Part shown: positions 1,911 through 19,318 of the stretch, in pieces | Layout: every line of letters starts with the position of its first letter | How positions within the stretch are numbered: position 1 is the stretch's first letter | Source of the DNA: a virus | IMG/VR virus record: IMGVR_UViG_3300026094_000738 | Coordinates: 1-21,197 of that record | Strand: one strand, 5' to 3' | DNA: 21,197 bases | Notes under the pieces: model-generated | Seen by the model: the letters and a program-made list of their open reading frames with translations, nothing else | Databases searched by the model: none | Told to the model about the DNA's origin: nothing | Translations under genes and position numbers: made by a program

Positions 1911-1918
1911 CAGAATTC

Positions 1919-1926
1919 GATAAATA
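1919..1926 (+). promoter_or_regulatory. Probable T4-like late promoter (GATAAATA)
   Basis: GATAAATA differs at one base from the T4 late promoter octamer TATAAATA. It sits in the 40-base gap between the first two structural genes, 24 bases before the next ATG. Transcription would start about 6-8 bases downstream, leaving room for the ribosome site at 1938-1942. Assigned by match and position only. Confidence 0.55.
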
Positions 1927-1937
1927 CCATATATGAT

Positions 1938-1942
1938 AGGGG
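1938..1942 (+). promoter_or_regulatory. Ribosome binding site AGGGG
   Basis: AGGGG ends 8 bases before the ATG at 1951 and fixes that start for the second structural gene. Confidence 0.7.
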
Positions 1943-1950
1943 CTTAACAA

Positions 1951-3435: not shown

Positions 3436-3438
3436 ATA
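3431..3438 (+). promoter_or_regulatory. T4-like late promoter TATAAATA
   Basis: Exact match to the T4 late promoter octamer. It overlaps the stop codon (3433-3435) of the upstream fibre gene and lies 27 bases before the ATG at 3466. A start point near 3444-3446 leaves a short leader containing AAGGA (3454-3458). The position directly before a virion gene fits late transcription. Confidence 0.7.
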
Positions 3439-3453
3439 AAGTACGCACTTAAA

Positions 3454-3458
3454 AAGGA
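3454..3458 (+). promoter_or_regulatory. Ribosome binding site AAGGA
   Basis: AAGGA ends 7 bases before the ATG at 3466. Confidence 0.75.
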
Positions 3459-3465
3459 CGTTAAT

Positions 3466-4488
3466 ATGGCAGTTTCACCAGGTGATACAATTACAGCAGC
3501 AGATTTTAATAATCTTCAAAGCAGAATAGCACAGGTTTTAGGCACAGGGTCAGACGATTTTGGATACGGGCAAACGGTTGAAAGCAGCCAAGTAACTTCT
3601 TTAACAGATCCTGATATTCCAGACGGTGATTCTGTGCTTGCGTCACAATTTAACGATCTTAAAACCGATCTTGGAAAAGCATATAAACATCAAGAAGGCT
3701 CGGATATTCCTATCAACGATTTCACGGCTGGCGATATTATTGGTGCCAATGAATCAGGAACTAACCTAAATTTTGATCAAAGTGGCAACTATATATTTGC
3801 AAATGAAGACACTACTAAAGGATTCAATGATTTTCTTACAATTATGACAGATCTAGAATCTAATAGATTTAATATTCACCCAAGTCAAGAAGATGTCCAG
3901 GTTAGAGACTCTGATCAGAGAACTTCTAGTTTTAACGGCACTATTACTTCTCAGCTTACTATAAGTTTCACTAATGAAGATGCAAGAAGACATTTTTTTA
4001 ACTCTGGCGGGGATATTAGATTCGAAGGAACAGCTGATCTTTCAACATCGCAGCCGGGCAGCGGCGCTAGAGACGAAGGATGGAACGATTTGCTAGAAAA
4101 TCCAGGTACTATTATATTTGATTACAATTCTACTACAATTACAGGCAGTACATCTGGTGTATCTTTTCCAGGCGGTGTAATCGGCAACAATTCTCTTACC
4201 GGCAGCTTCCAAGTCATTTACAGAAAAGACGCCAATGGCGGTACTTATGGTGATTCTTTTTGGACGATCGAAGCTAGAGAAGACAGCAGCACAGTTATAA
4301 GATTTAGAATAACTCTAGTAGACGACGGTCCTGAGAGTGACACAGACGCCGGCGCCGACGGATCAATTGAAGGTGGTATTACTGAGCCAGTAACTGCTGA
4401 TCTAGAATTTGAATATTCTGCTAGACGTGCCAACGGTGAAGTAGTAGTGCCTTTCCCTGCATTTAGCATCGTAGACACATTTGAATAA
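3466..4488 (+). CDS. Phage structural protein (340 aa)
   Basis: Likely virion protein. The first ~70 residues look like a short alpha-helical attachment region (ITAADFNNLQSRIAQVLGTG and SVLASQFNDLKTDLGKAY, an imperfect internal repeat built on 'A-x-x-F-N-x-L'). The C-terminal ~200 residues are beta-rich and contain DARRHFFNSGGDIRFEG, close to a YFFNSGG-type phrase I recognise from tail-associated structural proteins of marine T4-like phages. No signal peptide or membrane helix is seen. It has its own late promoter (3431-3438) and a good ribosome site, and its stop lies 3 bases before the -35 box of the next transcription unit, so it probably ends the structural group. The exact virion position is unknown. 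Confidence 0.8.
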   Translation: MAVSPGDTITAADFNNLQSRIAQVLGTGSDDFGYGQTVESSQVTSLTDPDIPDGDSVLASQFNDLKTDLGKAYKHQEGSDIPINDFTAGDIIGANESGTNLNFDQSGNYIFANEDTTKGFNDFLTIMTDLESNRFNIHPSQEDVQVRDSDQRTSSFNGTITSQLTISFTNEDARRHFFNSGGDIRFEGTADLSTSQPGSGARDEGWNDLLENPGTIIFDYNSTTITGSTSGVSFPGGVIGNNSLTGSFQVIYRKDANGGTYGDSFWTIEAREDSSTVIRFRITLVDDGPESDTDAGADGSIEGGITEPVTADLEFEYSARRANGEVVVPFPAFSIVDTFE

Positions 4489-6593: not shown

Positions 6594-7153
6594 TGTATGT
6601 GATTTTTGAAAAAGATACAGGAAAAGTATTAGGAATTTCTCCTAAACCAGAAAATGAGAACTCGATTCCTGTAAATCTTTCTGACGTAACAGGTCTTCTG
6701 AATGGTACTGAAAGAAAAAGAAATTACAGAGTTGAATATAATCCCAAAACTAAACAGTTAGAATTGCAAGACCAACACCAAGAAAGTTTTGACGGGTCTA
6801 GTGTGAATGATTTTATATACGAAATACCAGAAGACACAATAGAAGATGCTGATATAGTTGTCGAACAGGACAAACCAAACACCTGCTGGAGAATTAAACT
6901 TGGAAAACAGTTAAAAAGAAATCTACGCAAGAAAGGAATACGGCTAAACACTAGATTATCTTTCTCTGTTACAGCAAAACATGACCCTAATATACTTTAC
7001 AAAACTCTTTCTGTAGACTTTGCTAGCATACTGAATGATAATTATGCAGTAATAGATTTTTCTATGCCGTTTGAAACAGAAAACACGCCTCTATCTGTTT
7101 TTACTGCAAGACGATTCGATACTTATCAGTTTAAAAGGATATTAGATGAATAA
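6578..7153 (+). CDS. Unknown beta-rich phage protein (191 aa)
   Basis: Not recognised. The N-terminal 60 residues (MYVIFEKDTGKVLGISPKPE, then YRVEYNPKTKQLEL) look like beta-hairpins. The middle has an acidic segment (IPEDTIEDADIVVEQD), followed by a basic one (KLGKQLKRNLRKKGIRLNTR) and a C-terminal beta-rich part ending FDTYQFKRIL. The charge split might mean binding to DNA, RNA or a polyanion, but this is weak. The start at 6578 has AAGGA (6563-6567) 10 bases upstream; an alternative ATG at 6593 would give a TGATG stop-start overlap and lose 5 residues. It overlaps the next gene by 8 bases, so it belongs to this operon. Confidence 0.6.
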   Translation: MSETVMYVIFEKDTGKVLGISPKPENENSIPVNLSDVTGLLNGTERKRNYRVEYNPKTKQLELQDQHQESFDGSSVNDFIYEIPEDTIEDADIVVEQDKPNTCWRIKLGKQLKRNLRKKGIRLNTRLSFSVTAKHDPNILYKTLSVDFASILNDNYAVIDFSMPFETENTPLSVFTARRFDTYQFKRILDE

Positions 7154-8045
7154 AATTAGAATAGTAGAACAAGACATTATCTTTTTATCCTACGATGAGC
7201 CTAATGCTGAAAAAAACTATGCTGACCTTTGTCAAAAGATTCCTTGGGCAAAAAGAGTACACGGTGTAAAAGGATCAGACGCAGCACATAAAGCCTGCGC
7301 AGATTTATCTGACACTGAATATTTCATAACTGTCGATGGTGACAATCAAGTAAAACCTGAATTTCTTAATGTAGAAGTAGACGTCGAAAAACTAGGATTA
7401 ACAGCGGATCATGTATTTTCTTGGTGCGGCAAAATTCATGTAAACGGATTAATGTATGGCAACGGCGGCTTAAAATTATGGAATAAAAAATTTGTTAACA
7501 GTATGAAAACCCACGAAGCGTCAAACGGAACTGATCCTCGCTCTCTAGTAGAATTTTGTTTCGATGATTTATATTATCAATTTAATGAGAACTTTTCCGT
7601 TTCGTGTACAAACGCTTCACCTTTTCAAGCATTCAGAGCAGGCTTTAGAGAAGGCGTAAAGATGAGTTTAAATCAAGGTGCTCCGGTAAAAGATATTCGA
7701 TCAGTGTGGTGGCAGAACTTAGAACGTCTGCTAATATGGTGTTCTGTTGGTGCAGATGTTGAAAATGGTTTCTGGAGCGTTTATGGTGCGAGAGAAGGCT
7801 GTTATTTGACAAACTGCACAGACTGGGATTATACGCAAGTAAGAGATTTTGAATATTTAACAGAACAGTGGGACAATCATTATTCTAAAATTCAAAATGA
7901 CGACTTAATTTCTCATATACAAGAAGCAGGAAATATACTTGCTACTGATTTAGGATTAGAAATTGCTTTGCTTGACCAAGATTCTAGTAGATTCTTTAAA
8001 AAAGTATATCATAACACTCCCCGAATAATAAAATCAAGACAATGA
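7146..8045 (+). CDS. GT-A-like (family 2-like) protein paired with a radical SAM gene, copy 1 (299 aa)
   Basis: Likely glycosyltransferase-fold protein. IIFLSYDEPNAEKNY at 11-25 forms the first strand and nucleotide loop; FITVDGDNQV holds a DxD-like D64-G65-D66; YGNGGLKLW (about 104-112) and PFQAFRAGFREGVKM are further conserved blocks. All recur in the gene at 16599-17279 (FISYNESNADKNW, VVDADAE, YGYGGVKLL, PFSAWRSGFRECVKL), so the two are paralogues. This copy is about 70 residues longer, mostly at the C-terminus. AAGGA (7135-7139) lies 6 bases before the ATG. It overlaps the following radical SAM gene by 4 bases (ATGA). Catalytic activity and substrate are not shown; a non-enzymatic GT-fold role is possible. 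Confidence 0.6.
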   Translation: MNKIRIVEQDIIFLSYDEPNAEKNYADLCQKIPWAKRVHGVKGSDAAHKACADLSDTEYFITVDGDNQVKPEFLNVEVDVEKLGLTADHVFSWCGKIHVNGLMYGNGGLKLWNKKFVNSMKTHEASNGTDPRSLVEFCFDDLYYQFNENFSVSCTNASPFQAFRAGFREGVKMSLNQGAPVKDIRSVWWQNLERLLIWCSVGADVENGFWSVYGAREGCYLTNCTDWDYTQVRDFEYLTEQWDNHYSKIQNDDLISHIQEAGNILATDLGLEIALLDQDSSRFFKKVYHNTPRIIKSRQ

Positions 8046-9418
8046 GCGAACTAGAAAAGATAAAAGAAATTATTCCCCACACTGATCGAGAAATCTCTAC
8101 AACCTTTTGTATGGCAAAATGGCATCATACTACCATTTACCTTCAAACAGGTGAAACTCACTCCTGTTATCATCCTGCTCCGCATTCTATTCCGCTGGAA
8201 GAACTAGATAACAACCCTTCTGCTCTTCATAATACTCGTCAAAAAAAGCAGGAACGTGAATTTATGATGAAAGGCAAACAGCCTGCAGGCTGCTCCTACT
8301 GCTGGAAGATAGAAGCAATGGGCAAAGACTATGTGTCAGACCGCCATATTAAAACTGCTTCAATCTATACACCAGAAAGACTAGAAGAAATCAAACAAGG
8401 CGGCGCAAAATATAATGTAAATCCTGAATACATAGAAATCTCCTTTTCAAACGAGTGTAATTTCAAGTGCGGCTATTGCCATCCCAAAGCAAGTTCTAGA
8501 TACTGGAAGGAAATTGATGATCACGGACCGTATGACGCTTCGACCGACCATAGACAAGATATAGACTGGTTTAAGATCTATCAGAAAGAGGAAGAAAATC
8601 CCTATGTAAAAGCATGGTGGGAGTGGTGGCCTGAAGTTTCAAAGACGCTAAACATACTGCGCATTACAGGCGGCGAACCTTTGATGCACAAAAGCACATG
8701 GGATCTGTTTGATAGACTGGAAGAAGATCCTAAACCACATATTCAGATAGAAATTAACTCTAATCTAGGAGTAAAACCCAAATTAGTAGAACGATTAGTA
8801 GAAAGAATAAATTATCTGCGTTCTAATAATGCAATTAAGAGTTTTAAACTGTATACATCAATCGACACCTGGGGCAAACGTGCTGAGTACGCACGACACG
8901 GGTTAGATATAGAATTGTGGGAACAAAATCTAGATTATTATCTTTCTAATACTGGATTACCTGTTACATTTATGATTACTTTTAACATATTTGGCGTTAC
9001 TAGCTTTAATAGCCTTCTAGAAAAGATACTAGAATGGAGAACCAAATACAATTCTGACGAAAATGAGACTCAGTGGCAGAGAATTCGTTTCGATACTCCT
9101 CATCTAAAAGAGCCTGCTATATTCGATATGAATATTCTGCCAAAAGAAGAATTTATGCCTTATATGCACAGCCATTTAGAGTTTATAAAACAGAACCTAA
9201 ACAATGCTGACAGGACACAGTTTACAGATCTGGAATACGAAAAGTTTAAACGGGTAGTTGACTACATGGAGACTACCAATTATGAAGAAGACAAACTAAT
9301 ACTTTCTCGTAAAAACTTTAACGCATGGTTTTCGGAACACGATCGTAGAAGAAATGTCAGCCTTGTAGAAACATTTCCCGAGATGCAGAATTTTTGGGAT
9401 TTGTGCAAGAATCAGTGA
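8042..9418 (+). CDS. Radical SAM enzyme with N-terminal twitch domain (458 aa)
   Basis: Uses a 4Fe-4S cluster to cleave S-adenosylmethionine and start a radical reaction. The cluster motif CNFKCGYC gives C139, C143 and C146; ITGGEP (208-213) is the SAM-contacting strand; a TIM-barrel-like region follows to about residue 330. Before the barrel, C23, C42, C84 and C87 (SCYHPAP and GCSYCWKIE) look like ligands of an auxiliary Fe-S cluster. This order, auxiliary domain first, matches the 'twitch domain-containing radical SAM' family known from marine phages and bacteria, whose substrate I do not know. A tryptophan-rich run, AWWEWWPEV, lies at 191-199. The gene overlaps the upstream GT-like gene by 4 bases and its 3' end overlaps the convergent gene by 7 bases. 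Confidence 0.9.
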   Translation: MSELEKIKEIIPHTDREISTTFCMAKWHHTTIYLQTGETHSCYHPAPHSIPLEELDNNPSALHNTRQKKQEREFMMKGKQPAGCSYCWKIEAMGKDYVSDRHIKTASIYTPERLEEIKQGGAKYNVNPEYIEISFSNECNFKCGYCHPKASSRYWKEIDDHGPYDASTDHRQDIDWFKIYQKEEENPYVKAWWEWWPEVSKTLNILRITGGEPLMHKSTWDLFDRLEEDPKPHIQIEINSNLGVKPKLVERLVERINYLRSNNAIKSFKLYTSIDTWGKRAEYARHGLDIELWEQNLDYYLSNTGLPVTFMITFNIFGVTSFNSLLEKILEWRTKYNSDENETQWQRIRFDTPHLKEPAIFDMNILPKEEFMPYMHSHLEFIKQNLNNADRTQFTDLEYEKFKRVVDYMETTNYEEDKLILSRKNFNAWFSEHDRRRNVSLVETFPEMQNFWDLCKNQ

Positions 9419-10278
9419 TATAACTGATAAGGCATTGGTAATTCTTTTTTTAACCTAAAATTATTGTGAATATAATCTACCCACTGTTTAGGCATATCGT
9501 GTAATCCGCAACTGCGCTTAGTGCTTTTATATTCCTCTTTAATATATTTTCGCCATTGGGTATGTAATGAATTTACTGCATCAATCGTTCTGTCTGAAAA
9601 GTCAAAATCAAACGTTTTTGTAAGATATTCATAATGCTCTAAAATAGTAGGATGACCGTCAGAATAATTAGGATGTATTTCCTTCCAGTCTTTGTTCCAC
9701 TTATAATCTATATCATTTTGCCATAAAGTTTCGTAAAAACTAGGAGAGATACTATCTAATGAATCTTTGTATAAACTTGATAAAATATCAATATCGCCTT
9801 CATAGTTGTTGTCTCCGGTCTCCCATTGATTTATATGTTTTTTGACATCGCACATTGATAAAAAATGATAGTTGGTTTTTCCGTATAGATAATTTTTAAT
9901 AAGATCTATGTACGAAAAGTCTCTAAGCGCAAAATGAATATCGTTTGCCCAACTCCTAACAAATTTGCCATCGTACTCTTGTTGTGAATATATGTTTCCT
10001 GGAGTGACCCAGCCTTTTTTACTCCTCCATCTATCTTCTCTTGATATGTTTGTCCAGCAAACAATTACTAGATCATTTTCGTCAAAGTTATAAAATTGGT
10101 TTGCCTGCGTAATCTGATTCGATATAAAAGCATTTCCTGCTCCACTTTTTCCAAAGTTATAAAACTCACAATCAAACTCAAATGCAAGTATATTTGCCCA
10201 TGTTGCCCATTTATAATCTGTAAAGGAACAACCAAATGTAAAAAGTCTCTGTGGATTAGTATGTTTTAGTTTTTGCAT
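9412..10278 (-). CDS. SGNH/GDSL-like hydrolase family protein (288 aa)
   Basis: Probable esterase, deacetylase or acyltransferase of the SGNH fold. Block I is FTFGCSFTDYKW with the likely nucleophile S18; block II is GKSGAGN (43-49); block III is WTNISRED with N77; block V is SDGHP with D207 and H209. GCS replaces the usual GDS, a variant I know from phage members. The sequence after block V is a helical C-terminal extension of ~75 residues. AGGAA lies about 11 bases before the start. It is the last gene of the minus-strand operon and overlaps the gene before it by 13 bases. A role in adding or removing acyl groups on a glycan is inferred from the neighbours. Confidence 0.75.
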   Translation of the reverse strand: MQKLKHTNPQRLFTFGCSFTDYKWATWANILAFEFDCEFYNFGKSGAGNAFISNQITQANQFYNFDENDLVIVCWTNISREDRWRSKKGWVTPGNIYSQQEYDGKFVRSWANDIHFALRDFSYIDLIKNYLYGKTNYHFLSMCDVKKHINQWETGDNNYEGDIDILSSLYKDSLDSISPSFYETLWQNDIDYKWNKDWKEIHPNYSDGHPTILEHYEYLTKTFDFDFSDRTIDAVNSLHTQWRKYIKEEYKSTKRSCGLHDMPKQWVDYIHNNFRLKKELPMPYQLYH

Positions 10279-11456
10279 AAGTTTCGTTTTCCTAACCTTT
10301 TGTATAATTGTCTAAATGCATTCAGGTCATTGTTTTCGTTAGCTAGTATATCAAAATTATGTATCAATTTCTCTCTGCAGTTCCAACGCCATTCAAGTTG
10401 TTTTTCTCTAGGTAATTTTTCTAGGTAATTTACAGCTTCGGTTGCAGTGCGTTGTAATGCAATGTATCTTTTTTTAGTATTTTCTATATTATCAAAATCA
10501 TAATTAAATAGTTCATCATATAATTTAAAACCGTATTTTTCTAGCGCTTTATTGCAGCCTCGTTGTCCCCAAATAAGAAAAGGCTGCATATGCGCTATTG
10601 GTTTAAATGTTTTTTCAGAGTAAAAAAAGCTAGTATTATTTCGATCATCGACACTGGTTTCGTTTACAATTTGGAACAGTGTCGAATTATGTAAGTGACT
10701 TCCTAAAGAAAGCGCATGATTAGTATTAAAGTCTGTTGTGTCTGCTATTAGTGGCAGATTTTCCTGCCACCATTTTACGTTGTCCTTTAGAAGATTGAAA
10801 GTTGACCTAAAATATTCGATATCTGTAGGAGTCATGGCATCGTGGCTTAACAAACAGCTATTTTTTATTTCAGATTTCCATAAGTTGTATATTGCATATG
10901 TCCTGTGTTTACGATTTACTCTAGACAAAGAAAGCAGAATTTTGTCGTCAAACAGTTTTTGGTTTTGTTCCTTCCATTGTTGAAAATATCTATAAGATTC
11001 TAATTTATTTGTTTTGTGATTCTCTAATAGGTCTCGCACCATCGATTTAAAACTTAAAAAACAAAAAACATTAATACTATCTGTTATTGAATTTGCTTTA
11101 TTATAATCTTCAATATTTTTAGTATCATGCATGTTAGCTGATACGTAAATGATTTTTTTAGGAGGAACATTGTATTTTTTGCAGTTTCTGTATAAGATGT
11201 CAAAAAAATGATAATCAAACGGAGAATATCCTTCCGTGCTTGCATCAAATAGGAAAAACAGATTTTTATCTTTCCTAAGACTTTCGAGTTCATTGATATA
11301 ACAAAATAAATCTAAATTAGGATAGAATTTTTGGTATTGCAACATTCCGTGTATAAAACTAATGGTATTATTTGGCTGTGCATTATTAAATAGCACGGTA
11401 AAAGCACTGCTTTTGCACTCTTTTATATAAGGATTTGATTTAATCTGAAAAGGCAT
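10266..11456 (-). CDS. E-K motif family protein, possibly GT-B-like, copy 1 (396 aa)
   Basis: One of three paralogues here (also 11440-12615 and 19311-20543). Shared blocks are an N-x-x-x-H-R site (NRKHR, 181-185), [IV]-[NS]-E-[TM] (NET, 265-267), and SEKTFKPIAHMQPFLIWG from 280, followed by a hydrophobic helix, G-[FY], and a YD-like acidic pair. An E-K motif before a hydrophobic strand and a GxG-like turn recalls the donor-binding part of GT-B transferases such as fucosyltransferase family 10 or exostosin-like proteins, so glycosyltransferase activity is possible; the similarity is by eye only. The N-terminal half contains FDASTEGYS and IIYVSANMHD. The start has no clear Shine-Dalgarno and overlaps the upstream gene by 17 bases. 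Confidence 0.6.
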   Translation of the reverse strand: MPFQIKSNPYIKECKSSAFTVLFNNAQPNNTISFIHGMLQYQKFYPNLDLFCYINELESLRKDKNLFFLFDASTEGYSPFDYHFFDILYRNCKKYNVPPKKIIYVSANMHDTKNIEDYNKANSITDSINVFCFLSFKSMVRDLLENHKTNKLESYRYFQQWKEQNQKLFDDKILLSLSRVNRKHRTYAIYNLWKSEIKNSCLLSHDAMTPTDIEYFRSTFNLLKDNVKWWQENLPLIADTTDFNTNHALSLGSHLHNSTLFQIVNETSVDDRNNTSFFYSEKTFKPIAHMQPFLIWGQRGCNKALEKYGFKLYDELFNYDFDNIENTKKRYIALQRTATEAVNYLEKLPREKQLEWRWNCREKLIHNFDILANENNDLNAFRQLYKRLGKRNLCKN

Positions 11457-12615
11457 TTAATATAGTATTGTCTTTTTTTAATTTTTTTAAAATTTTTATG
11501 TTGTGCTGAAATATAGGCTGCATTTCTTTGTGTATATCTTCCAATTCTTGTAAATCTATCGAATTTATTTTATTAATTAAAGAAAATATTTTCATCATTC
11601 TGACAGAATGATTTTGCTCCTGATCATAACTTTCATCCCACCAATCAGAAAACGTTTTAAATCCTAGTTTTGTTAGATATTCAAGAGTTTTCGGCGGCGC
11701 CGCTAAGATAAAAGGCCGTTTTAATTTTATTGCATCTAAGACCTTTTCGCTAAAATTAGCACTAGGTTGTGCAAATCTTGTTTCATTAATTATACAGCAG
11801 AAACATTCTTTATAACTGGCGTAATATGCATCATCGGGATTGCTGTAATCTATTGTGGGTTTTTGAAACCCTGCTAGATATTCAAAAGATAAAATGTCTG
11901 TGTTTTCATCGAGTACAAATTTATTTTTACGTAGTTTTATATTACCCTCTTCTAGATAAGGGTATGGGAGATTTTCGACCCAATCAGTATAATTGTGCCA
12001 ATCAGAAGGTGCATCAAAAAACCAACTATAATTTCCTTCAAAGTGAGAAAGATAGCACATAATTATATGACGGTGAATTGTATATCTACCATTTGAACAC
12101 CAGAACTTTTTTTTAATTTTTTTTTCTTCATAAATGCTATTTGGTAAATTAGAAATTTGTCTTATAAAGATATCTCTTGTCTGTAAGTCTAGATAAGGAT
12201 ATATCTCTTGAAAGTGCTTGGGAACATTCCAGTCGCAGAGATTTACTATAATTTTTATAGAAAGATATTCAGCTAGATCATTTATGCAATCTAGTTCTTC
12301 TGATCTTAAACGTATATCTGAATTAAACTTATTATGGAATTCGCTATAGAAACCAAGATTGTATTCAGCATCTTGAAAATAATATGATATTGGCTCGTAT
12401 AAGAAAAAATTTAAAGGTATTTTGTTTTTTCGAATTTTTTTAGCAAATTTCTTATCTTTGTAAAAACGTGTAAAGTCTATGCGATTTGTGCCAGTAAATA
12501 ACATTATAGGTTCTTCAAAATCCTTTAAAAAAGTAGATTGGAAAATTCCTACTCCTTTTTTATTTTTTATGCGAAGTGGCAAATTACCCCAATATAATCT
12601 TTGTACAAATGACAC
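11440..12615 (-). CDS. E-K motif family protein, possibly GT-B-like, copy 2 (391 aa)
   Basis: Most divergent of the three paralogues. It keeps NGRYTIHR (175-182), NET (277-279) and NFSEKVLDAIKLKRPFILAA (287-306), but has VLDAI where the others have [TI]-[FY]-KPI. The first 170 residues are basic and aromatic-rich without a known domain. The start is GTG at 12613-12615, sharing one base with the stop of the preceding gene (TAGTG). AGGAA on the minus strand (12623-12627) lies about 7-8 bases upstream and supports it; the next ATG would remove about 38 residues. Base composition is very AT-rich (13 G/C in 12421-12480). Function unknown; transferase activity is a hypothesis from the family motif. 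Confidence 0.55.
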   Translation of the reverse strand: MSFVQRLYWGNLPLRIKNKKGVGIFQSTFLKDFEEPIMLFTGTNRIDFTRFYKDKKFAKKIRKNKIPLNFFLYEPISYYFQDAEYNLGFYSEFHNKFNSDIRLRSEELDCINDLAEYLSIKIIVNLCDWNVPKHFQEIYPYLDLQTRDIFIRQISNLPNSIYEEKKIKKKFWCSNGRYTIHRHIIMCYLSHFEGNYSWFFDAPSDWHNYTDWVENLPYPYLEEGNIKLRKNKFVLDENTDILSFEYLAGFQKPTIDYSNPDDAYYASYKECFCCIINETRFAQPSANFSEKVLDAIKLKRPFILAAPPKTLEYLTKLGFKTFSDWWDESYDQEQNHSVRMMKIFSLINKINSIDLQELEDIHKEMQPIFQHNIKILKKLKKDNTILNAFSD

Positions 12616-13109
12616 TATCTAATTCCTGTAATCTGTAGAGTATATCGATCTTCTACGCCGATGTTTGAAGCAGCATGGGGAACATCTGCACTCCACATTA
12701 CAAATTCTCCTTTTTTGTAATTGCAAAATGCTTTATTATCTATTTCGAAATAATGACCAGACTTCCAATCTTCTAGAAACACAATTGCTCTCCAGACATC
12801 TTGTCTGTTTACAGAAAATACTTCACAATATTTACGAAAATGATCAACGTGAACCGGCATAATATCGTTTGTAGTCATTTTATAAAATACATAACCTGTT
12901 TTTTTCAAGTTAAGTTCCTGCGCAATTGCCGCAGTCCAGTTAGGCATAGGATTTTTACCTCCGTACATAGCCCCTGAAAAACTAGAATGAGTATATCCTT
13001 GCTGTCTCCAGTCTTTGAGTTCTTGATCTGTTAACGGCTGTTTTGTGTATGAGAAATTTTTGTAATCTTCTTTCCAAATTACGCCTACCTGCCCTTTTAA
13101 TACAGTCAT
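12615..13109 (-). CDS. 2-oxoglutarate/Fe(II)-dependent oxygenase-like protein (164 aa)
   Basis: Probable non-haem iron oxygenase, usually hydroxylating a protein side chain or small molecule with 2-oxoglutarate and O2. Iron ligands fit H87-V88-D89 (MPVHVDHF) and H145 (DVPHAASN); R155 in EDRYTLQITG is in the place that binds 2-oxoglutarate. WRAIVFLEDWKSGHYFEI supplies the central jelly-roll strands. Length fits a minimal single-domain oxygenase. The frame stays open 28 codons upstream, but ATG at 13109-13107 forms an ATGA overlap with the preceding gene's stop and is preferred. The preceding gene encodes the amidinotransferase, so both may act on the same product. Confidence 0.8.
   Translation of the reverse strand: MTVLKGQVGVIWKEDYKNFSYTKQPLTDQELKDWRQQGYTHSSFSGAMYGGKNPMPNWTAAIAQELNLKKTGYVFYKMTTNDIMPVHVDHFRKYCEVFSVNRQDVWRAIVFLEDWKSGHYFEIDNKAFCNYKKGEFVMWSADVPHAASNIGVEDRYTLQITGIR
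12623..12627 (-). promoter_or_regulatory. Ribosome binding site AGGAA supporting a GTG start
   Basis: Reads AGGAA on the minus strand and ends 7 bases before the GTG at 12615-12613. It decides the start of the second E-K family gene. Confidence 0.65.
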
Positions 13110-14074
13110 TTTTTGTCTCTCTCTAGGTCGAGTGTTACACAATGAAATCCTCCTCCTAAAGTTCTTTGGTGTCTCATAGGTAACATGGCACAATCTATTC
13201 CTTTTCTCTCTAGTAACATTTTAAGTGTGTTTTGATGTTCCTCTAATACAACTAGATCTTCTCTTACAGAAAACAAATTCATATTAATCCACTTGCTGGC
13301 ATTACAGATTTTTGGATAATGACCTATATCCTTTGGTTCTGGCGCCCAAATAATATCCCAGTCACAAAAAGGCTTGGGCAATTGGTATTTATTTTTGATT
13401 CTTTCTGGATTTGCTAATAGTAGGCCTTCTCTGAGAAAGGCAACAGTTGAGTCAATATGCATATAGGAATATACGTCTTCTAATGTTCGAACCCGAACTG
13501 AAGAACCTAATAGATCTTGAAGTAGTTCTGCGCCTTTTTTATTACCGCTGTTACTTACAAGATATAATATATCTTTATTTGCTCTAATTATGTTAGCAGC
13601 ATCAAAACTAGGAGCAACCTCATTCAAAGCAAGAGTGTTAGGGTCTTCTACACAATCTAGATTATATAAATCATCATTATTATAGGCAGGAATCACTGTT
13701 AGATTTTTTAAATGTGATTCAAATGCTTGATATTCTGTTTGTCTGCACTGTATCGGCATTGGAGTAGCATAGGATTTATCGCCATAGACTAGCACAGAAT
13801 CTCTTGGACAGTAATTGTAATAGTTTGGATTGTTATCGTTTGGTCTTACAACTTCTACGTTTTCTTTTTTTAGAAAATCACAGAAAATCTCTAGGTCCTC
13901 GTTTGCTTCTTCTATTACTTGAGCAGGATAATCTCTAGGTTGTATTTTAGATATGTCTTTTTTATCGGCATAATTAACAGTACGCAGAGATTTATCTAAA
14001 GCAGGAATTTTTGCTCCGGTAGCAGTTCCCACTACAACTTTCTTTAGATTGTCCCATTCGTTACAATTTTTCAT
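13106..14074 (-). CDS. Amidinotransferase (glycine/inosamine-phosphate amidinotransferase type, 322 aa)
   Basis: Transfers the amidino group of arginine to an amine, making a guanidino compound. The sequence follows the AGAT/StrB1 branch of the guanidino-group modifying superfamily: EWDNLKKVVVGTATGA at the start, YCPRDSVLVYGD (88-99), APSFDAANIIRA with D158, YMHIDSTVAF with H206, and LGGGFHCVTLDL with catalytic C312. D158, H206 and C312 form the expected catalytic set. Closeness of SFDAANIIRA and LGGGFHC to glycine amidinotransferase argues against plain arginine deiminase. Acceptor unknown. The N-terminus overlaps the upstream gene by 14 bases. A DegT/StrS-like aminotransferase lies one gene upstream; the same enzyme pair makes guanidino-inositols in streptomycin synthesis. 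Confidence 0.9.
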   Translation of the reverse strand: MKNCNEWDNLKKVVVGTATGAKIPALDKSLRTVNYADKKDISKIQPRDYPAQVIEEANEDLEIFCDFLKKENVEVVRPNDNNPNYYNYCPRDSVLVYGDKSYATPMPIQCRQTEYQAFESHLKNLTVIPAYNNDDLYNLDCVEDPNTLALNEVAPSFDAANIIRANKDILYLVSNSGNKKGAELLQDLLGSSVRVRTLEDVYSYMHIDSTVAFLREGLLLANPERIKNKYQLPKPFCDWDIIWAPEPKDIGHYPKICNASKWINMNLFSVREDLVVLEEHQNTLKMLLERKGIDCAMLPMRHQRTLGGGFHCVTLDLERDKK

Positions 14075-14705
14075 TAAACTTATTATATAGTAAATTTGCT
14101 ATAATTTCATGACCTTTCTCATTTGGATGCGTATCATCAGGTATAAAATTTTCTCCTACTAGATGATGAGGCGGGCCGTCGTGTTCTAAATTATAATTCT
14201 CAAACCAATCTGCACTGCCAAGTAAGTCTGTGAGAGATCTTTTATAATCTAGAAATATTTCTTTAGGTATAAGACTTTGAAAAGCGGGGTGTATAATTAA
14301 TTTTCCGTAGTTATGTGCAAAAATTACATTTACTTTTTTTTCTAAGCAAATTGTGTAAATAGAATGTATGAACAATGCGTGATGATATACAAACCAATAG
14401 TCTGTTTTTCCTTTCAGAAACTGCTTGTGTTCTTTGTTATAATGATATAAACTATAGATTTTTTTATTTCTTTCTGTGTACCATCGAACATCGGGAGGAA
14501 CAATTACAGTTACAAGGTCACCGGGCACAAATTTATGATGCTTATTTATGAAATCATGAGTAATTTGACCAAGACTGCTCCCAGACTGAGAATAATTTTC
14601 TGAGCTGCAAGATAGGTATGTTTCGAGATATTTCGTAAAGTTTTTTTCATGATCTTTGAGTCCCCATCCTGCTCCCCAGCTATCTCCAAATGTATATATT
14701 TTCAT
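14061..14705 (-). CDS. SGNH/GDSL hydrolase family protein (214 aa)
   Basis: Second SGNH protein of this operon, with a classic GDSW block I (TFGDSWGAGWG, S9 nucleophile), block II SQSGSSLGQI, and block V PDDTHPNEKG with D190 and H193. Block III is less clear: VIVPPDVRW stands where a GxND segment would be. Short, without signal peptide, so it probably acts in the cytoplasm on a small or carrier-linked substrate as esterase, deacetylase or acyl transferase. GGAGG on the minus strand (14713-14717) lies 7 bases before ATG, the strongest ribosome site in the block. It overlaps the aminotransferase-like gene by 4 bases (ATGA). Confidence 0.8.
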   Translation of the reverse strand: MKIYTFGDSWGAGWGLKDHEKNFTKYLETYLSCSSENYSQSGSSLGQITHDFINKHHKFVPGDLVTVIVPPDVRWYTERNKKIYSLYHYNKEHKQFLKGKTDYWFVYHHALFIHSIYTICLEKKVNVIFAHNYGKLIIHPAFQSLIPKEIFLDYKRSLTDLLGSADWFENYNLEHDGPPHHLVGENFIPDDTHPNEKGHEIIANLLYNKFNEKL

Positions 14706-15289
14706 TGGAATACCTCCATATTTGATAAATCAGGATAATCCTGCCAGCTCCATTTTTTTGATGGTGTTATAATTGCCCCTGGTAATTTTTTTAGACCTAG
14801 TTCTGCTGTGTCGGGCGTCATATAGTAATGATATCCTATGCTGTTAATGTTTTGTTCAGCCCACGGAATGTCTGGCAATCTGCCGTCGTAGCTTGTTTTT
14901 TTTAATTCTAGGTAATCTTCTTTGTTATCTAATAAAATAGCGCCACCTCGTCCTAATCCAAGATGTTTCTTATATTGAAAACTCAAACACATATAAGTCT
15001 CGGGTATATATCCATTTTCTTGCCAATGTACAGCGGCATCTATTATGTTATTAGTAATATAGTAATAATCATGCCACGAATTATTTTCAAATTGCCATTC
15101 TAGTCCTAATTTTTCAAACACAAAAGGAATAGAAATATATGTATGATACGGAGACAAAGCTTTTTTTATGTTTTGTAATCTTAGACATAATTCCATTGCA
15201 TGAGTGCAAGAATCAGTAGACACGCAGAAAGGTGAATTATAGAATTTGGCAATCTCATTTTCAAAATCACTAACTATTTCAAAACTCAT
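14702..15289 (-). CDS. Miniature DegT/StrS-type PLP aminotransferase-like protein (195 aa)
   Basis: Resembles the core of sugar aminotransferases of the DegT/DnrJ/EryC1/StrS family but is half their usual 370-400 residues. Recognisable parts in order: FENEIAKFYNSPFCVSTDSC (9-28), like the N-terminal substrate/PLP loop; IIDAAVHW (82-89), where D84 would hold the PLP ring nitrogen; SFQYKKHLGLGRGGAILL (103-120), with K108 at the PLP-lysine position before a G-x-GG turn; SIGYHYYMTPDTAELGLKKL (150-169), like the 'GyNyrm..iqAA' region. The spacer between the first and second parts is only ~50 residues and the C-terminal domain is missing. The gene has clean ends and a tight junction, so it does not look decayed. 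It could be active, a half-enzyme, or a binding protein. Confidence 0.7.
   Translation of the reverse strand: MSFEIVSDFENEIAKFYNSPFCVSTDSCTHAMELCLRLQNIKKALSPYHTYISIPFVFEKLGLEWQFENNSWHDYYYITNNIIDAAVHWQENGYIPETYMCLSFQYKKHLGLGRGGAILLDNKEDYLELKKTSYDGRLPDIPWAEQNINSIGYHYYMTPDTAELGLKKLPGAIITPSKKWSWQDYPDLSNMEVFQ
14713..14717 (-). promoter_or_regulatory. Strong ribosome binding site GGAGG
   Basis: Perfect GGAGG on the minus strand, 7 bases before the ATG at 14705-14703, located inside the 3' end of the upstream aminotransferase-like gene. Confidence 0.8.
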
Positions 15290-15350
15290 ATTGTATTTAA
15301 AATAAAATCATATTTATAGTTTATAGTATGGAATAAAATTAAATATCAGT
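15290..15350. other. Divergent intergenic region
   Basis: 61-base AT-rich gap between the minus operon and the plus dehydrogenase gene, the only divergent junction here. On the minus strand it carries TATAAATA (15311-15318). On the plus strand only weak boxes are seen, such as TATAGT at 15315-15320 or 15322-15327 with a poor -35. No Shine-Dalgarno is visible before either start. Confidence 0.6.
15311..15318 (-). promoter_or_regulatory. T4-like late promoter TATAAATA for the minus-strand operon
   Basis: Exact late octamer on the minus strand, ending 21 bases before the aminotransferase-like ATG (15289). It would drive the seven overlapping genes down to 9412 and place the operon under late control with the structural genes. 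Confidence 0.6.
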
Positions 15351-16574
15351 ATGCAGATTGGATATATTGGAGTAGGAAAATTAGGCCTGCCTTGCGCCGA
15401 AGAAATTGTAAAGAAAGGCCACGATGTAAAAGGTTATGATCTAGAACCTCTTCCTAGTGAACTAGTAGAATTTAAAACCTCTATCGAAGCGTGTGTTCAA
15501 GGCTGCGACATTGTGTTTGTTGCAGTACCTACACCGCACGATAGCGATTATGATGGCAGTAAGCCTACGCATCAATTACCGCCTAAAGATTTTTCATATG
15601 ATACTGTAACATCTGTTCTTAAAGAAGCTGACAAACACATGAACCGAGATCAACTTTTAGTGTTGATATCTACTGTTTTGCCTGGCACTACAAGAAGAGA
15701 ATTTACACCTCTTATAACCAACACAAGATTTGTTTATAACCCTTATCTTATCGCTATGGGATCTGTTGCCTGGGACATGGTCAATCCAGAGATGATTATG
15801 ATAGGCACAGAAGACGGCACAGAAACAGGTGATGCTAGACTGCTAAAAGAATTCTATGATACTGTTATGGAAAACGATCCTACCACAGTTGTAGGTACCT
15901 ATGACGAATGCGAATGTATCAAGGTTTTTTACAATACGTTTATATCTACAAAAATATCACTGGTCAACATGATTCAGGATGTTGCAGAAAAACAGAAAAA
16001 CATTAATGTTGATGTAGTAACAGAAGCACTTGCAAATTCTACCAAGCGTATAATGAGTCCTCAATATATGACAGCAGGCTTAGGAGACGGCGGGTCGTGT
16101 CATCCCAGAGACAATATTGCTCTTCGTTATATGGCACAGGAACTTGATCTAGGCTATGATTTATTCGATGCTATCATGTACGCGAGAGAATATCAAGCAA
16201 AAAATCTTGCTCTAGAACTAGTGAAGCATGCTAATGAAAATGATCTGCCCGTGTACATACACGGCAAGGCATACAAACCTCAAGTGCCTTACACAGATGG
16301 ATCATACAGTCTACTGGTAGGACATTATGTCGAAGAGGCAGGAATCAAACCTACTTACATAGACCCTTACACCGGCGATGATTATAAACCTACAGAACCT
16401 GGCGTATTTCTAATGGCACATTCTGCTTCGGTAACCTATGATTACACAAAAACCAAAACTCAAGACGAAATTTACTGTCCTATTCCGCCATTTAGTATTG
16501 TGATAGATCCTTGGCGAAAATTTACAAGTTCTGTCAGTCGAGTAATACACTACGGAAATACTAGACAGAGATAA
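15351..16574 (+). CDS. UDP-glucose/GDP-mannose dehydrogenase family protein (407 aa)
   Basis: NAD-dependent nucleotide-sugar dehydrogenase-like enzyme, normally oxidising C6 of a UDP- or GDP-sugar to a uronate. The NAD site is GYIGVGKLG (G7, G9, G12); CDIVFVAVPTP is the fourth strand of the Rossmann fold; CIKVFYNT gives K191 and N195; GLGDGGSCHPRD holds catalytic C250 and D254. A C-terminal domain from about 295 starts VYIHGKAYKPQV. The usual NPEFLREG segment is NPYLIAMG (130-137), so two conserved glutamates are replaced (Y132, M136), and the usual K after GGSCFP is R253. This may change thioester hydrolysis or substrate. The start has no clear ribosome site. Likely supplies a precursor for the transferases here. 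Confidence 0.85.
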   Translation: MQIGYIGVGKLGLPCAEEIVKKGHDVKGYDLEPLPSELVEFKTSIEACVQGCDIVFVAVPTPHDSDYDGSKPTHQLPPKDFSYDTVTSVLKEADKHMNRDQLLVLISTVLPGTTRREFTPLITNTRFVYNPYLIAMGSVAWDMVNPEMIMIGTEDGTETGDARLLKEFYDTVMENDPTTVVGTYDECECIKVFYNTFISTKISLVNMIQDVAEKQKNINVDVVTEALANSTKRIMSPQYMTAGLGDGGSCHPRDNIALRYMAQELDLGYDLFDAIMYAREYQAKNLALELVKHANENDLPVYIHGKAYKPQVPYTDGSYSLLVGHYVEEAGIKPTYIDPYTGDDYKPTEPGVFLMAHSASVTYDYTKTKTQDEIYCPIPPFSIVIDPWRKFTSSVSRVIHYGNTRQR

Positions 16575-16598: not shown

Positions 16599-17279
16599 AT
16601 GTATGATATCGTCTTTATATCCTATAACGAATCAAATGCAGACAAAAACTGGGAACTTTTAAAATCTCGTTTTCCGTCTGCTAAAAGAGTAGACGGTGTG
16701 AAAGGAATACACCAGGCACATATCAAAGCCGCAAAAAAATGTTTTACAAAAATGTTTTGGGTCGTAGACGCAGATGCTGAACTAGTAGAAGATTTTTCGT
16801 TTGATTACGAAGTAGATGAATATAATTTAGACACTGTCCATGTATGGCGTTCGCAGAATCCTGTAAATGATTTGATTTACGGTTACGGCGGAGTAAAATT
16901 ACTTCCTAGAACCAAGACTCTAAAGATGGGTGTTTCTAAACTTGACATGACAACCTCTATATCCAATAGTTTTAAAGCCGTTGAAGAAACATCAAACATA
17001 ACAGCATTTAACACCGATCCTTTTTCTGCCTGGCGATCTGGTTTTAGAGAGTGTGTGAAACTTGCCAGCCAAACAATAGACAGACAAGACAATTCAGAAA
17101 CTCTTAAACGCTTAGAAGTATGGTGTAATCAGGGAGTAAATCGACCGTTTGGTATAGATGCTATAAAGGGTGCTAAACAGGGTAGAAGATTCGGTGAAGA
17201 AAACAAAAATAACCCTGCCGAGTTACAGAAAATAAACGACTTTGAATGGTTATTAGAAAAATTCCATGCTAAACATTAG
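16599..17279 (+). CDS. GT-A-like (family 2-like) protein paired with radical SAM genes, copy 2 (226 aa)
   Basis: Paralogue of the gene at 7146-8045. FISYNESNADKNWELL opens the fold, RVDGVKGIHQAH follows, VVDADAE holds D57-A58-D59 as DxD-like motif, and HVWRSQNPVNDLIYGYGGVK (81-100) and PFSAWRSGFRECVKLA are the other shared blocks. It lacks the ~70 extra C-terminal residues of the first copy. No ribosome site is visible in the 24-base gap upstream. It overlaps the following radical SAM gene by 14 bases, repeating the gene order seen at 7146-9418. Glycosyltransferase activity is plausible but untested. Confidence 0.6.
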   Translation: MYDIVFISYNESNADKNWELLKSRFPSAKRVDGVKGIHQAHIKAAKKCFTKMFWVVDADAELVEDFSFDYEVDEYNLDTVHVWRSQNPVNDLIYGYGGVKLLPRTKTLKMGVSKLDMTTSISNSFKAVEETSNITAFNTDPFSAWRSGFRECVKLASQTIDRQDNSETLKRLEVWCNQGVNRPFGIDAIKGAKQGRRFGEENKNNPAELQKINDFEWLLEKFHAKH

Positions 17280-18333
17280 AGAAATTAAGACTGTTCACAT
17301 TGAACTTACAGACAAGTGCCAAGCACAGTGTCCCATGTGTGCAAGAAATTTTCATGGTGGAGAATTACGTCCGTTTATCAAAGGCGGCGATATTTCTATA
17401 GAAGATTTTAAAGAATGGTTTTCTGTTGAATTTTTATCGCAACTAGAAAATTTTTATAGTTGTGGCAATTACGGTGACCCTGCATTTGCCAAAGACTGTC
17501 TAGAAATATATGACTATGTAAGAAAATGTAATTCTCATACACGTCTTTCTCTTCATACAAATGGAGGAATGCGCAATAAAGACTGGTGGAGAAAGCTTGC
17601 AGAGATAATAGGCACTCAGGCAAATTCTGAAGTTGTTTTTGCAATAGACGGATTTAAAGGCAAGCATGAATTATACAGAAGAAATACAAATTTTGATAAA
17701 GTTATAGAAAACATGTGTGCCTTTATTGCTGCTGGCGGCATAGCAAAAGTAGACAGTCTTGTTTTTGAGCATAATGAACATGAAACAGAAGAACTAGAAA
17801 AATATCTTCTTGATCTAGGTGTACAGTCGGTAAACTTTGTTCGCACTACTAGATTTTATGAAATGACTGAGTTTAAAGTTTTAGACAAACAAGGAAATTT
17901 TGAATATAATCTAAAACCAGCTCAAAGAGAAGAATACAAAATGTCACCTAATTATTCTCTTTCAAGATTATTGGACCAAGATTATAGAAATAGGGTTATT
18001 GCAGATAGCAAAATTGTTCCTAAATGTCAAAACGAACAAAGCATATATGTAGATCCTTATGGTAATGTATTTCCCTGTTGTTGGATAGGGGGAGAATATC
18101 AAGAAACACCTATAAAAGAAAAACTACCGATTCATAAACTTAGGAACATCACTGTTCAGAATTCAAAAGAGATGCTGGATGTTATCGGTGTGCCTAATTG
18201 CAAAGATAAGATTTTTTATACGCAGTCTGATTTATGGAAAAAATTGCCAGATTATTGGCAAGGCGAAAAAAAATGCTTCACGTGCGCTAGACAGTGTTCT
18301 ACTATGATGTACGATGTAGGAAAGTATGTCTAA
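17266..18333 (+). CDS. Radical SAM enzyme with SPASM-like C-terminus (355 aa)
   Basis: Radical SAM motif CQAQCPMC gives C18, C22 and C25 close to the N-terminus. The segment aligned with GGEP is CGNYGDPA (66-73), a known alternative. LHTNGG and VFAIDGF mark barrel strands. The C-terminal part has C254, C271, C272, C312, C337, C340 and C344 with YVDPYGNVFPCCW and CFTCARQC, the spacing of a SPASM-type domain that binds one or two auxiliary clusters. SPASM enzymes often modify peptides, but no precursor peptide gene is seen here; others act on sugars or amino acids. The gene overlaps its neighbours by 14 and 8 bases. The partial gene at the window end starts with a very similar LEITNKCQASCP. Confidence 0.9.
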   Translation: MLNIREIKTVHIELTDKCQAQCPMCARNFHGGELRPFIKGGDISIEDFKEWFSVEFLSQLENFYSCGNYGDPAFAKDCLEIYDYVRKCNSHTRLSLHTNGGMRNKDWWRKLAEIIGTQANSEVVFAIDGFKGKHELYRRNTNFDKVIENMCAFIAAGGIAKVDSLVFEHNEHETEELEKYLLDLGVQSVNFVRTTRFYEMTEFKVLDKQGNFEYNLKPAQREEYKMSPNYSLSRLLDQDYRNRVIADSKIVPKCQNEQSIYVDPYGNVFPCCWIGGEYQETPIKEKLPIHKLRNITVQNSKEMLDVIGVPNCKDKIFYTQSDLWKKLPDYWQGEKKCFTCARQCSTMMYDVGKYV

Positions 18334-19318
18334 TTATCACTCTATTCCTTTTGATAAAATAGTCAAACTAGGCCAAAAGACTCTCCTAGACCACCGTCTT
18401 TTCTCAGTTTCTTGGATCCTGGCTAGATATTGTAATTATTCATGCTCTTATTGCTGGCCATACGCAAGATCTAGTGTCTCAGATCACCGTCCTCTAGAAA
18501 CCTACTGTAGCGTAATGGATGACATCAAGGCACAGAGTCGTCTCAATGGTTTCGACAGTTTCCACTTCAGTTTTTCCGGAGGCGAACCAACTGCGTATAA
18601 ACATTTTCTCAAACTGATTGAATACTATGCCGACGATAGCCTGCCTGAGTACCAAAGCATACACATGACTACTAATCTGTCCCCAGGCACAAAATGGTGG
18701 GACCGCTGGATTGCTGCTACTGAAAATCTCAGCAGGAGATCTATTACAGCAAGTTTTCACGCAGAGTTTGCTGACGAACAACAGTTCGGCGACAAGTGTC
18801 TTCAACTGATAGACGCTGGGGTATTTGTTACAATCAATCAGGTAATGGTGCCAGAACTGTTTGATGAATACTGGGAACGCTGTCAGAGGTTTGCAGACCG
18901 AGGCATAAACGTCACTGTAAAGCCTCAAAGCGACCCTACAGCAAGTTTTGTAGTGCATGGGTATACTCAGGCACAGGTCAAGTGTTTACAGACACACTTT
19001 CCGCAGCATGTTAACGGCGAAGAACTTGGGCAGATGAGATTGACAGACGATGCTGGCGCAGAGTATGACTTAGATCAAGCAGAACGATTAAATGCGTTTG
19101 GATTTAACAAGTTCAAAGGCTGGAATTGTAATGCCGGTTATCAGAGCTGTATTATCCGCGAGCCAGGCGGTGAGATTAAACGTTCTTATTCTTGTTATGA
19201 CGAATCTCTCGGCACTATCGATGACGGATTTGATCTATTCAAATCGCCTAAGCAGTGTATAACACCGACTTGTGTTAGTTCAGCAGACTCTAAAATACCT
19301 AAGGCAAAAAATGTATAA
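18326..19318 (+). CDS. Radical SAM enzyme with twitch/SPASM-like C-terminus (330 aa)
   Basis: Radical SAM motif CNYSCSYC (C36, C40, C43), then FSGGEPTAYKHF with GGEP at 85-88, and barrel strands HMTTNLSP and TASFHAEFAD. The C-terminus has C268, C275, C290, C311 and C316, spaced like a twitch or short SPASM domain (WNCNAGYQSCIIREPGG, YSCYDES, CITPTC). AGGAA at 18318-18322 precedes the start, inside the upstream gene. Base composition stands out: 27 G/C in 18541-18600 and 30 in 18841-18900, well above the following gene (14 in 19681-19740). This suggests recent transfer from a different source. Substrate unknown; it may work in sequence with the adjacent radical SAM enzyme. Confidence 0.9.
   Translation: MSNYHSIPFDKIVKLGQKTLLDHRLFSVSWILARYCNYSCSYCWPYARSSVSDHRPLETYCSVMDDIKAQSRLNGFDSFHFSFSGGEPTAYKHFLKLIEYYADDSLPEYQSIHMTTNLSPGTKWWDRWIAATENLSRRSITASFHAEFADEQQFGDKCLQLIDAGVFVTINQVMVPELFDEYWERCQRFADRGINVTVKPQSDPTASFVVHGYTQAQVKCLQTHFPQHVNGEELGQMRLTDDAGAEYDLDQAERLNAFGFNKFKGWNCNAGYQSCIIREPGGEIKRSYSCYDESLGTIDDGFDLFKSPKQCITPTCVSSADSKIPKAKNV
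19301..19304 (+). promoter_or_regulatory. Ribosome binding site AAGG that sets the start at 19311
   Basis: AAGG ends 6 bases before ATG 19311. The frame opens earlier with GTG at 19272, but that start would lie 47 bases inside the radical SAM gene and has no such site. Confidence 0.6.

Follow-up and report, generated by a model that had tools for sequence, protein, structure and literature searches.

The stretch of viral DNA analysed here, called the window below, is a virus record of 21.2 kb that gave no matches when the whole of it was compared with phages by Megablast. Tail-fibre-like genes at 12-4488 are followed by a series of sugar genes, glycosyltransferase-like genes and radical SAM genes, the last of which number three in the window. 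Gene runs of this kind are known from marine myophages. About 5 kb past the tail-fibre-like genes lies a minus-strand operon with the order mini-DegT, SGNH, amidinotransferase, 2OG-Fe(II) oxygenase, GTx1, GTx2 and SGNH-like, in which the coordinates of adjacent genes overlap by 1-17 bp. A preliminary description of this DNA had placed a DegT/StrS-like gene and an AGAT/StrB1-like gene one gene apart, and both are indeed so arranged on the minus strand. The operon runs beyond the end given there and takes in the genes at 11440-12615, 10266-11456 and 9412-10278. The features of the region are listed below with the evidence for each.

14702..15289, minus strand: mini-DegT, a 195-aa sugar-aminotransferase-like PLP protein, first gene of the operon (Pfam PF01041, AlphaFold2 model, Foldseek, residue invariance)
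14061..14705, minus strand: SGNH/GDSL-like hydrolase or acyltransferase (Lipase_GDSL 3e-4, below the cut-off)
13106..14074, minus strand: StrB1-like amidinotransferase, 322 aa (match to 1bwd, active-site table, tree)
12615..13109, minus strand: 2OG-Fe(II) oxygenase-like protein, 164 aa (invariant motif; relative in phage S-SCSM2R annotated as a 2OG-Fe(II) oxygenase)
11440..12615, minus strand: GTx1, a putative GT-B-like glycosyltransferase with a GTG start (gene position, AlphaFold2 model, Foldseek)
10266..11456, minus strand: GTx2, a second protein of the GTx family (shares BLAST cluster c0 with GTx1)
9412..10278, minus strand: SGNH-like protein with a GCSFT motif, last gene of the operon (sequence motif)
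15351..16574, plus strand: UDP-glucose/GDP-mannose dehydrogenase-like (UGD-like) gene, divergent from the operon (Pfam, PHROG, NCBIfam)
15311..15318, minus strand: TATAAATA, a T4-type late-promoter-like motif upstream of mini-DegT (motif search)

The amidinotransferase has StrB1 (1bwd) as its best match in a phmmer search of the PDB (E 3.3e-60, 207.7 bits), aligned over residues 5-319 and so over its full length. The next matches are HsvA (4.8e-37, 131.6 bits) and human AGAT (2.3e-34, 122.8 bits), so that StrB1 leads the next family by 76 bits as best structural relative. The protein has no Pfam or NCBIfam match; NCBIfam and the PHROGs name neither of the two key proteins, PHROG 25854 being of 'unknown function' and mini-DegT having no PHROG. 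Tree building with 34 proteins places the main clade of phage amidinotransferases (support 100/100) next to StrB1 and four actinobacterial proteins with moderate support (91/84), and AGAT and HsvA apart from it (97/99). The Asp-His-Cys catalytic residues are present as D158, H206 and C312, and every phage sequence in the main clade has them; together with D92, D208, R225 and S260 they match both StrB1 and AGAT. Arg and Ser are conserved at the R225 and S260 positions, which we take to bind the carboxylate of the donor. The corresponding catalytic residues of AGAT are D254, H303 and C407 (PMC3684758). On the acceptor side a V-Y-S-Y-M-H motif is nearly invariant across the phage clade, and S203-Y204-M205 within it compares with N-P-M in AGAT and A-S-T in StrB1, the Met being common to AGAT. 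Because the catalytic and donor residues are kept and the acceptor motif is unlike that of either enzyme, the donor and the chemistry can be predicted and the acceptor cannot. The acceptor of StrB1 proper is scyllo-inosamine 4-phosphate. The AGAT/StrB1-like identity given in the preliminary description thus stands, and activity as a deiminase only is not favoured since the transferase residues are kept. The actinobacterial relatives (37% identity) were also considered as a clue to the acceptor, and the neighbours of one of them, which encode TauD, a carbamoyltransferase and a class III aminotransferase, do not indicate it.

The mini-DegT protein matches Pfam DegT_DnrJ_EryC1 (PF01041) at 1.9e-12 (47.5 bits; cut-off 19.8) in two blocks that correspond to profile positions 26-90 and ~165-235 of 360. 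Its 195 aa fall short of the ~360-400 aa of two-domain DegT proteins, and both the C-terminal domain and a portion of the core are absent. AlphaFold2 modelling with 17 family members gave a pLDDT of 95.3 and a pTM of 0.91, and nearly all of the top fifty Foldseek matches in the PDB are sugar or related DegT-family aminotransferases, among them GDP-perosamine synthase, ArnB and AtS13. TM-scores are 0.66-0.76 by query and, in the top matches, 0.32-0.41 by target length. The PLP lysine, an Asp for the pyridine nitrogen and a Ser/Thr for the phosphate, which mark the DegT family, are all found: K108 aligns with the PLP lysine, K108, D84 and S103 occur in 120 of 120 distinct mini-DegT sequences, and T29 occurs in 119. 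Full-length DegT enzymes carry an N-x-R motif, at the position of which mini-DegT has a nearly invariant H154-Y155-Y156. Identity among aligned members is 46-75%, and in IMG/VR at least 589 viral stretches encode mini-DegT, far more than the 248 with the amidinotransferase. An aminotransferase-like identity had been proposed earlier and is borne out by the Pfam match, the confident fold and the invariant lysine. We read mini-DegT as a predicted functional, reduced PLP enzyme on the basis of these residues and the model.

Full-length homology, the overlapping genes and the recurrence of the pair across numerous viral contigs indicate that the pairing is not due to chance. Both genes were present in all 19 of the loci first collected. 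Of 96 viral loci fetched by the amidinotransferase, 85 have mini-DegT nearby; the oxygenase occurs in 77 of the 96, GTx1 in 74 and a UDP-sugar dehydrogenase-like gene in 52. In the other 11 loci mini-DegT is not within reach; 6 of these are under 9 kb, and several represent one other context, in which the loci inspected keep the amidinotransferase, the oxygenase and GTx1. To avoid ascertainment, control loci were collected with the UGD-like gene and a radical SAM gene (C), both also from this region, as anchors. Mini-DegT is present in 14 of 16 UGD-anchored loci with the amidinotransferase versus 16 of 64 without it (p 7e-6, a value that overstates independence since the counted loci are related to each other), and in 4 of 4 versus 0 of 76 loci anchored on the radical SAM gene, so that 18 of the 20 amidinotransferase loci in the control sets hold it. 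Of 67 amidinotransferases, 34 have the oxygenase directly downstream, the commonest overlap being 11 bp, and GTx1 follows the two in 30 cases. This conserved co-occurrence upholds the functional link suggested earlier for the enzyme pair, as well as the inclusion of the oxygenase in the set.

Where mini-DegT occurs without the amidinotransferase, its surroundings differ. An NAD-dependent epimerase/dehydratase (Pfam Epimerase, 3.8e-39) is present in 38 of 45 such loci, and in some of them a hexapeptide acyltransferase-like or formyltransferase gene lies beside mini-DegT. A search with mini-DegT as anchor gave 73 distinct loci, of which 27 contain the amidinotransferase, 14 an acyl- or formyltransferase, and none both. 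The acyl- and formyltransferases thus number 0 of 27 with the amidinotransferase versus 14 of 46 without it (p 0.0012), and 0 of 35 versus 10 of 29 when all loci are clustered at 75% (p 1.3e-4), both values being optimistic since the loci are related. Such mutual exclusion fits a sugar amine as the product of mini-DegT, with amidino, acyl and formyl groups as alternative N-decorations predicted from gene content. The epimerase/dehydratase and the UDP-sugar dehydrogenase-like gene point to a nucleotide-activated sugar rather than to a keto-cyclitol product as in the streptomycin synthesis that the preliminary description cites.

The remaining genes of the operon vary in how well they can be assigned. 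In the oxygenase, H87-x-D89 and H145 (the iron triad) and R155 (the Arg for 2-oxoglutarate) are invariant in 10 relatives; the protein has no Pfam match, and a profile search of the PDB gave no relative. Its start is most likely at 13109, the TTG at 13193 being an over-extension. The model of GTx1 has a pLDDT of 83.5 and weak Foldseek matches to HepE, T4 beta-glucosyltransferase, MshA and FUT9 (best E 2e-3, TM ~0.3), on which its putative assignment as a GT-B-like glycosyltransferase is based. The SGNH gene at 14061-14705 is not a conserved member of the gene set, as its family occurs in 5 of 96 amidinotransferase loci, and acylation by this neighbour, an earlier suggestion, is unsupported. 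Relatives of the SGNH-like protein at 9412-10278, which has no Pfam match, occur in 43 of the 96. The UGD-like gene matches Pfam UDPG_MGDP_dh (6e-19), PHROG 9148 (8.6e-94) and the NCBIfam nucleotide sugar dehydrogenase model (4.7e-46, below the cut-off), and is a possible source of the sugar.

The motif TATAAATA, which we take to be the T4 late motif, occurs in 20 of 115 regions upstream of mini-DegT in relatives, where shuffled sequences predict 2.3. In 15 of the 20 the spacing is the same, and none of 91 regions upstream of the amidinotransferase has the motif. In the window its spacing is 29 bases and differs from that in the relatives. Its total in the window is at chance and CTAAATA, a late-promoter form, occurs there less often than by chance, so that only its position and its recurrence in relatives are suggestive. 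This recurrence speaks slightly for a product made late, for example a glycan of the virion. Modification of the host surface, which was proposed for pelagimyophages (PMC7029224), may equally be the purpose; DNA is less likely.

StrB1 is the L-arginine:inosamine-phosphate amidinotransferase of the streptomycin pathway, where it acts with a DegT aminotransferase of the StsC type. The same two enzyme families are neighbours in the phage, which differs in its acceptor pocket (S-Y-M rather than A-S-T), in a DegT protein of half the size, and in surroundings of nucleotide-sugar and glycosyltransferase-like genes rather than cyclitol genes. The fold and PLP site of mini-DegT resemble those of NDP-sugar aminotransferases such as ArnB and GDP-perosamine synthase, but these enzymes (~365 aa) have the C-terminal domain and the part of the core that it lacks, and N-x-R where it has H-Y-Y. 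Among phages, a putative glycine amidinotransferase was described in 2010 among radical SAM genes of the Campylobacter phages CP220 and CPt10 (PMC2853527), likewise in an exchangeable cluster. Their amidinotransferases, however, are 24-27% identical and form a separate branch outside the main clade, and there is no mini-DegT in the two CP220/CPt10 regions examined. Synechococcus phage S-SCSM2R (PQ898602), with genes annotated 'inosamine amidinotransferase' and '3-amino-5-hydroxybenzoic acid synthase', also has mini-DegT, the oxygenase, the amidinotransferase (61%) and glycosyltransferases together, though in a different gene order with a radical SAM gene in between; a literature search found no study of this cluster. 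The window belongs to the same type of genomic region as the hypervariable region of pelagimyophages, for which glycosyltransferases, a UDP-glucose dehydrogenase, radical SAM cassettes and a proposed role in O-chain modification are described; the portion of that paper used here does not mention an amidinotransferase or DegT for the region (PMC7029224). According to the preliminary description, no such pathway had been seen described for a phage. That is too broad as regards phage amidinotransferases, given the Campylobacter and S-SCSM2R cases, and holds for the enzyme pair and a phage guanidino sugar, on which no paper was found in a search that did not take in bioRxiv preprints or most subscription journals. 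The gene kind is therefore not new, and what appears to be new is the sugar module together with the miniature DegT.

The operon probably makes and attaches a guanidino sugar. The enzyme families, the intact active-site residues, the conserved linkage and the exclusion of acyl- and formyltransferases are read directly from the sequences; each chemical step, the sugar, the order of the steps and the destination we infer. A nucleotide sugar would be converted to a keto sugar, perhaps by the UGD-like enzyme or else by a host or other phage enzyme, and in many relatives by the NAD-dependent epimerase/dehydratase. Mini-DegT, as a PLP enzyme, would then aminate the keto sugar, and the StrB1-like enzyme would transfer the amidino group of L-arginine to the resulting sugar amine, yielding a guanidino sugar and ornithine. 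The product or the acceptor is perhaps hydroxylated by the 2OG-Fe(II) oxygenase. Finally, the GTx proteins would transfer the guanidino sugar to a host surface glycan or, most likely, to a virion protein; the distance of ~5 kb from the tail-fibre-like genes and the motif resembling a late-type promoter suggest the latter.

Direct modification of peptides or proteins, in which lysine or ornithine side chains or a ribosomal peptide would be amidinated with the help of the radical SAM genes, is an unlikely alternative. The three radical SAM genes in the window agree with it, as do the Campylobacter phages, where five radical SAM genes accompany an amidinotransferase (PMC2853527), but the proteins of those phages lack the R225 and S260 residues, the partner enzyme has a sugar-aminotransferase fold and an epimerase/dehydratase context, and 76 of the 80 loci anchored on the radical SAM gene are without the pair. 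Rather unlikely, too, is a role apart from the sugar genes, in which the amidinotransferase would form guanidinoacetate or a similar small guanidino molecule that serves arginine metabolism or buffering of the creatine type. Creatine-pathway genes are enriched in viruses in ocean surveys, GAMT 85-fold, and one survey takes viral GAMT as creatine synthesis (PMC11360552); M205 matches M302 of AGAT, and mini-DegT is missing from 11 loci. Against this, the amidinotransferase is nearest to StrB1 rather than AGAT and has Ser for N300 of AGAT, it is strongly linked to mini-DegT and glycosyltransferase-like genes and excludes other N-decorating enzymes, and no creatine kinase or GAMT was recognised within the window.

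Glycosylation of DNA is known from T4-like phages, and a guanidino sugar on phage DNA, as a hypermodified base that protects against nucleases, would suit the fold match between GTx1 and T4 beta-glucosyltransferase. That match is weak and common to other GT-B enzymes, however, the late-type promoter motif and the nearness to tail-fibre-like genes are unsuited to DNA modification, and no gene for base hydroxymethylation was recognised within the window, which together make this destination very improbable. Least probable of all is the view that mini-DegT has degenerated or lost its catalytic function and that the pair is only carried along in a hypervariable region. Its half length, the altered N-x-R motif and the hypervariability of the region in pelagimyophages (PMC7029224) speak for it; the large number of viral stretches with mini-DegT, the identity retained among its members, the invariant PLP residues and the linkage in the control loci speak against it.

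Going beyond the window, the guanidino-sugar reading can be widened, tentatively and at somewhat less than even odds, to a dedicated module that many aquatic phages have in common. Built around mini-DegT, it would produce amino sugars whose N-decoration, an amidino, acyl or formyl group, is exchanged from phage to phage; with the amidino group the result would be a guanidino sugar, cationic and carried by virions or host glycans. Sugars with a guanidino group are rare, the best-known case being streptomycin. If the virus makes one, its glycan would be positively charged and could bind polyanions, alter adsorption or evade defences, and the known glycochemistry of phages would be broadened. A DegT protein of 195 aa would be unusually small for the fold and would offer a testable minimum of a PLP aminotransferase, and the exchange of amidino-, acyl- and formyltransferases beside it would make the chemistry predictable from gene content.

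The amidinotransferase operon is flanked in the window by three radical SAM genes:
8042-9418, first radical SAM gene
17266-18333, second radical SAM gene
18326-19318, third radical SAM gene
Relatives of the first are present in 61 of the 96 loci fetched by the amidinotransferase, and relatives of the third in 55. A second context, found in L158, L172, L173 and L178, consists of the amidinotransferase, the oxygenase and the putative glycosyltransferase GTx1 without the mini-DegT aminotransferase-like gene, and is surrounded by replication-type phage genes. Neighbours assigned by eye include a T4 RNase H-like protein and an AAA ATPase, as well as a QueE-like protein in some of these loci.

The amidinotransferase clusters of two Campylobacter phages (L029 and L031) have diverged strongly, both between themselves and relative to the marine clusters; L029 carries a radical SAM gene annotated BtrN. 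A tail-fibre-like protein encoded in the window has its C-terminal part in common with Campylobacter phages:
1951-3435, gene of this protein, which contains a Peptidase_G2 autoproteolytic domain

A single glycan cluster of Flavobacterium phage immuto (L030) carries DegT proteins of both sizes:
6986-7630, mini-DegT
3277-4476, full-length DegT

Some contigs possess two or three amidinotransferase-family genes:
L009, 8778-10900
L010, 8775-10900
L007, 6965-8086
According to the active-site table, one copy in these contigs retains the histidine and cysteine (H206 and C312 in the window), but in this same copy the presumed donor-binding arginine (R225) is replaced by alanine or threonine and the serine (S260) by asparagine. 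The loss of these donor residues suggests that this variant copy uses a different donor or acceptor.
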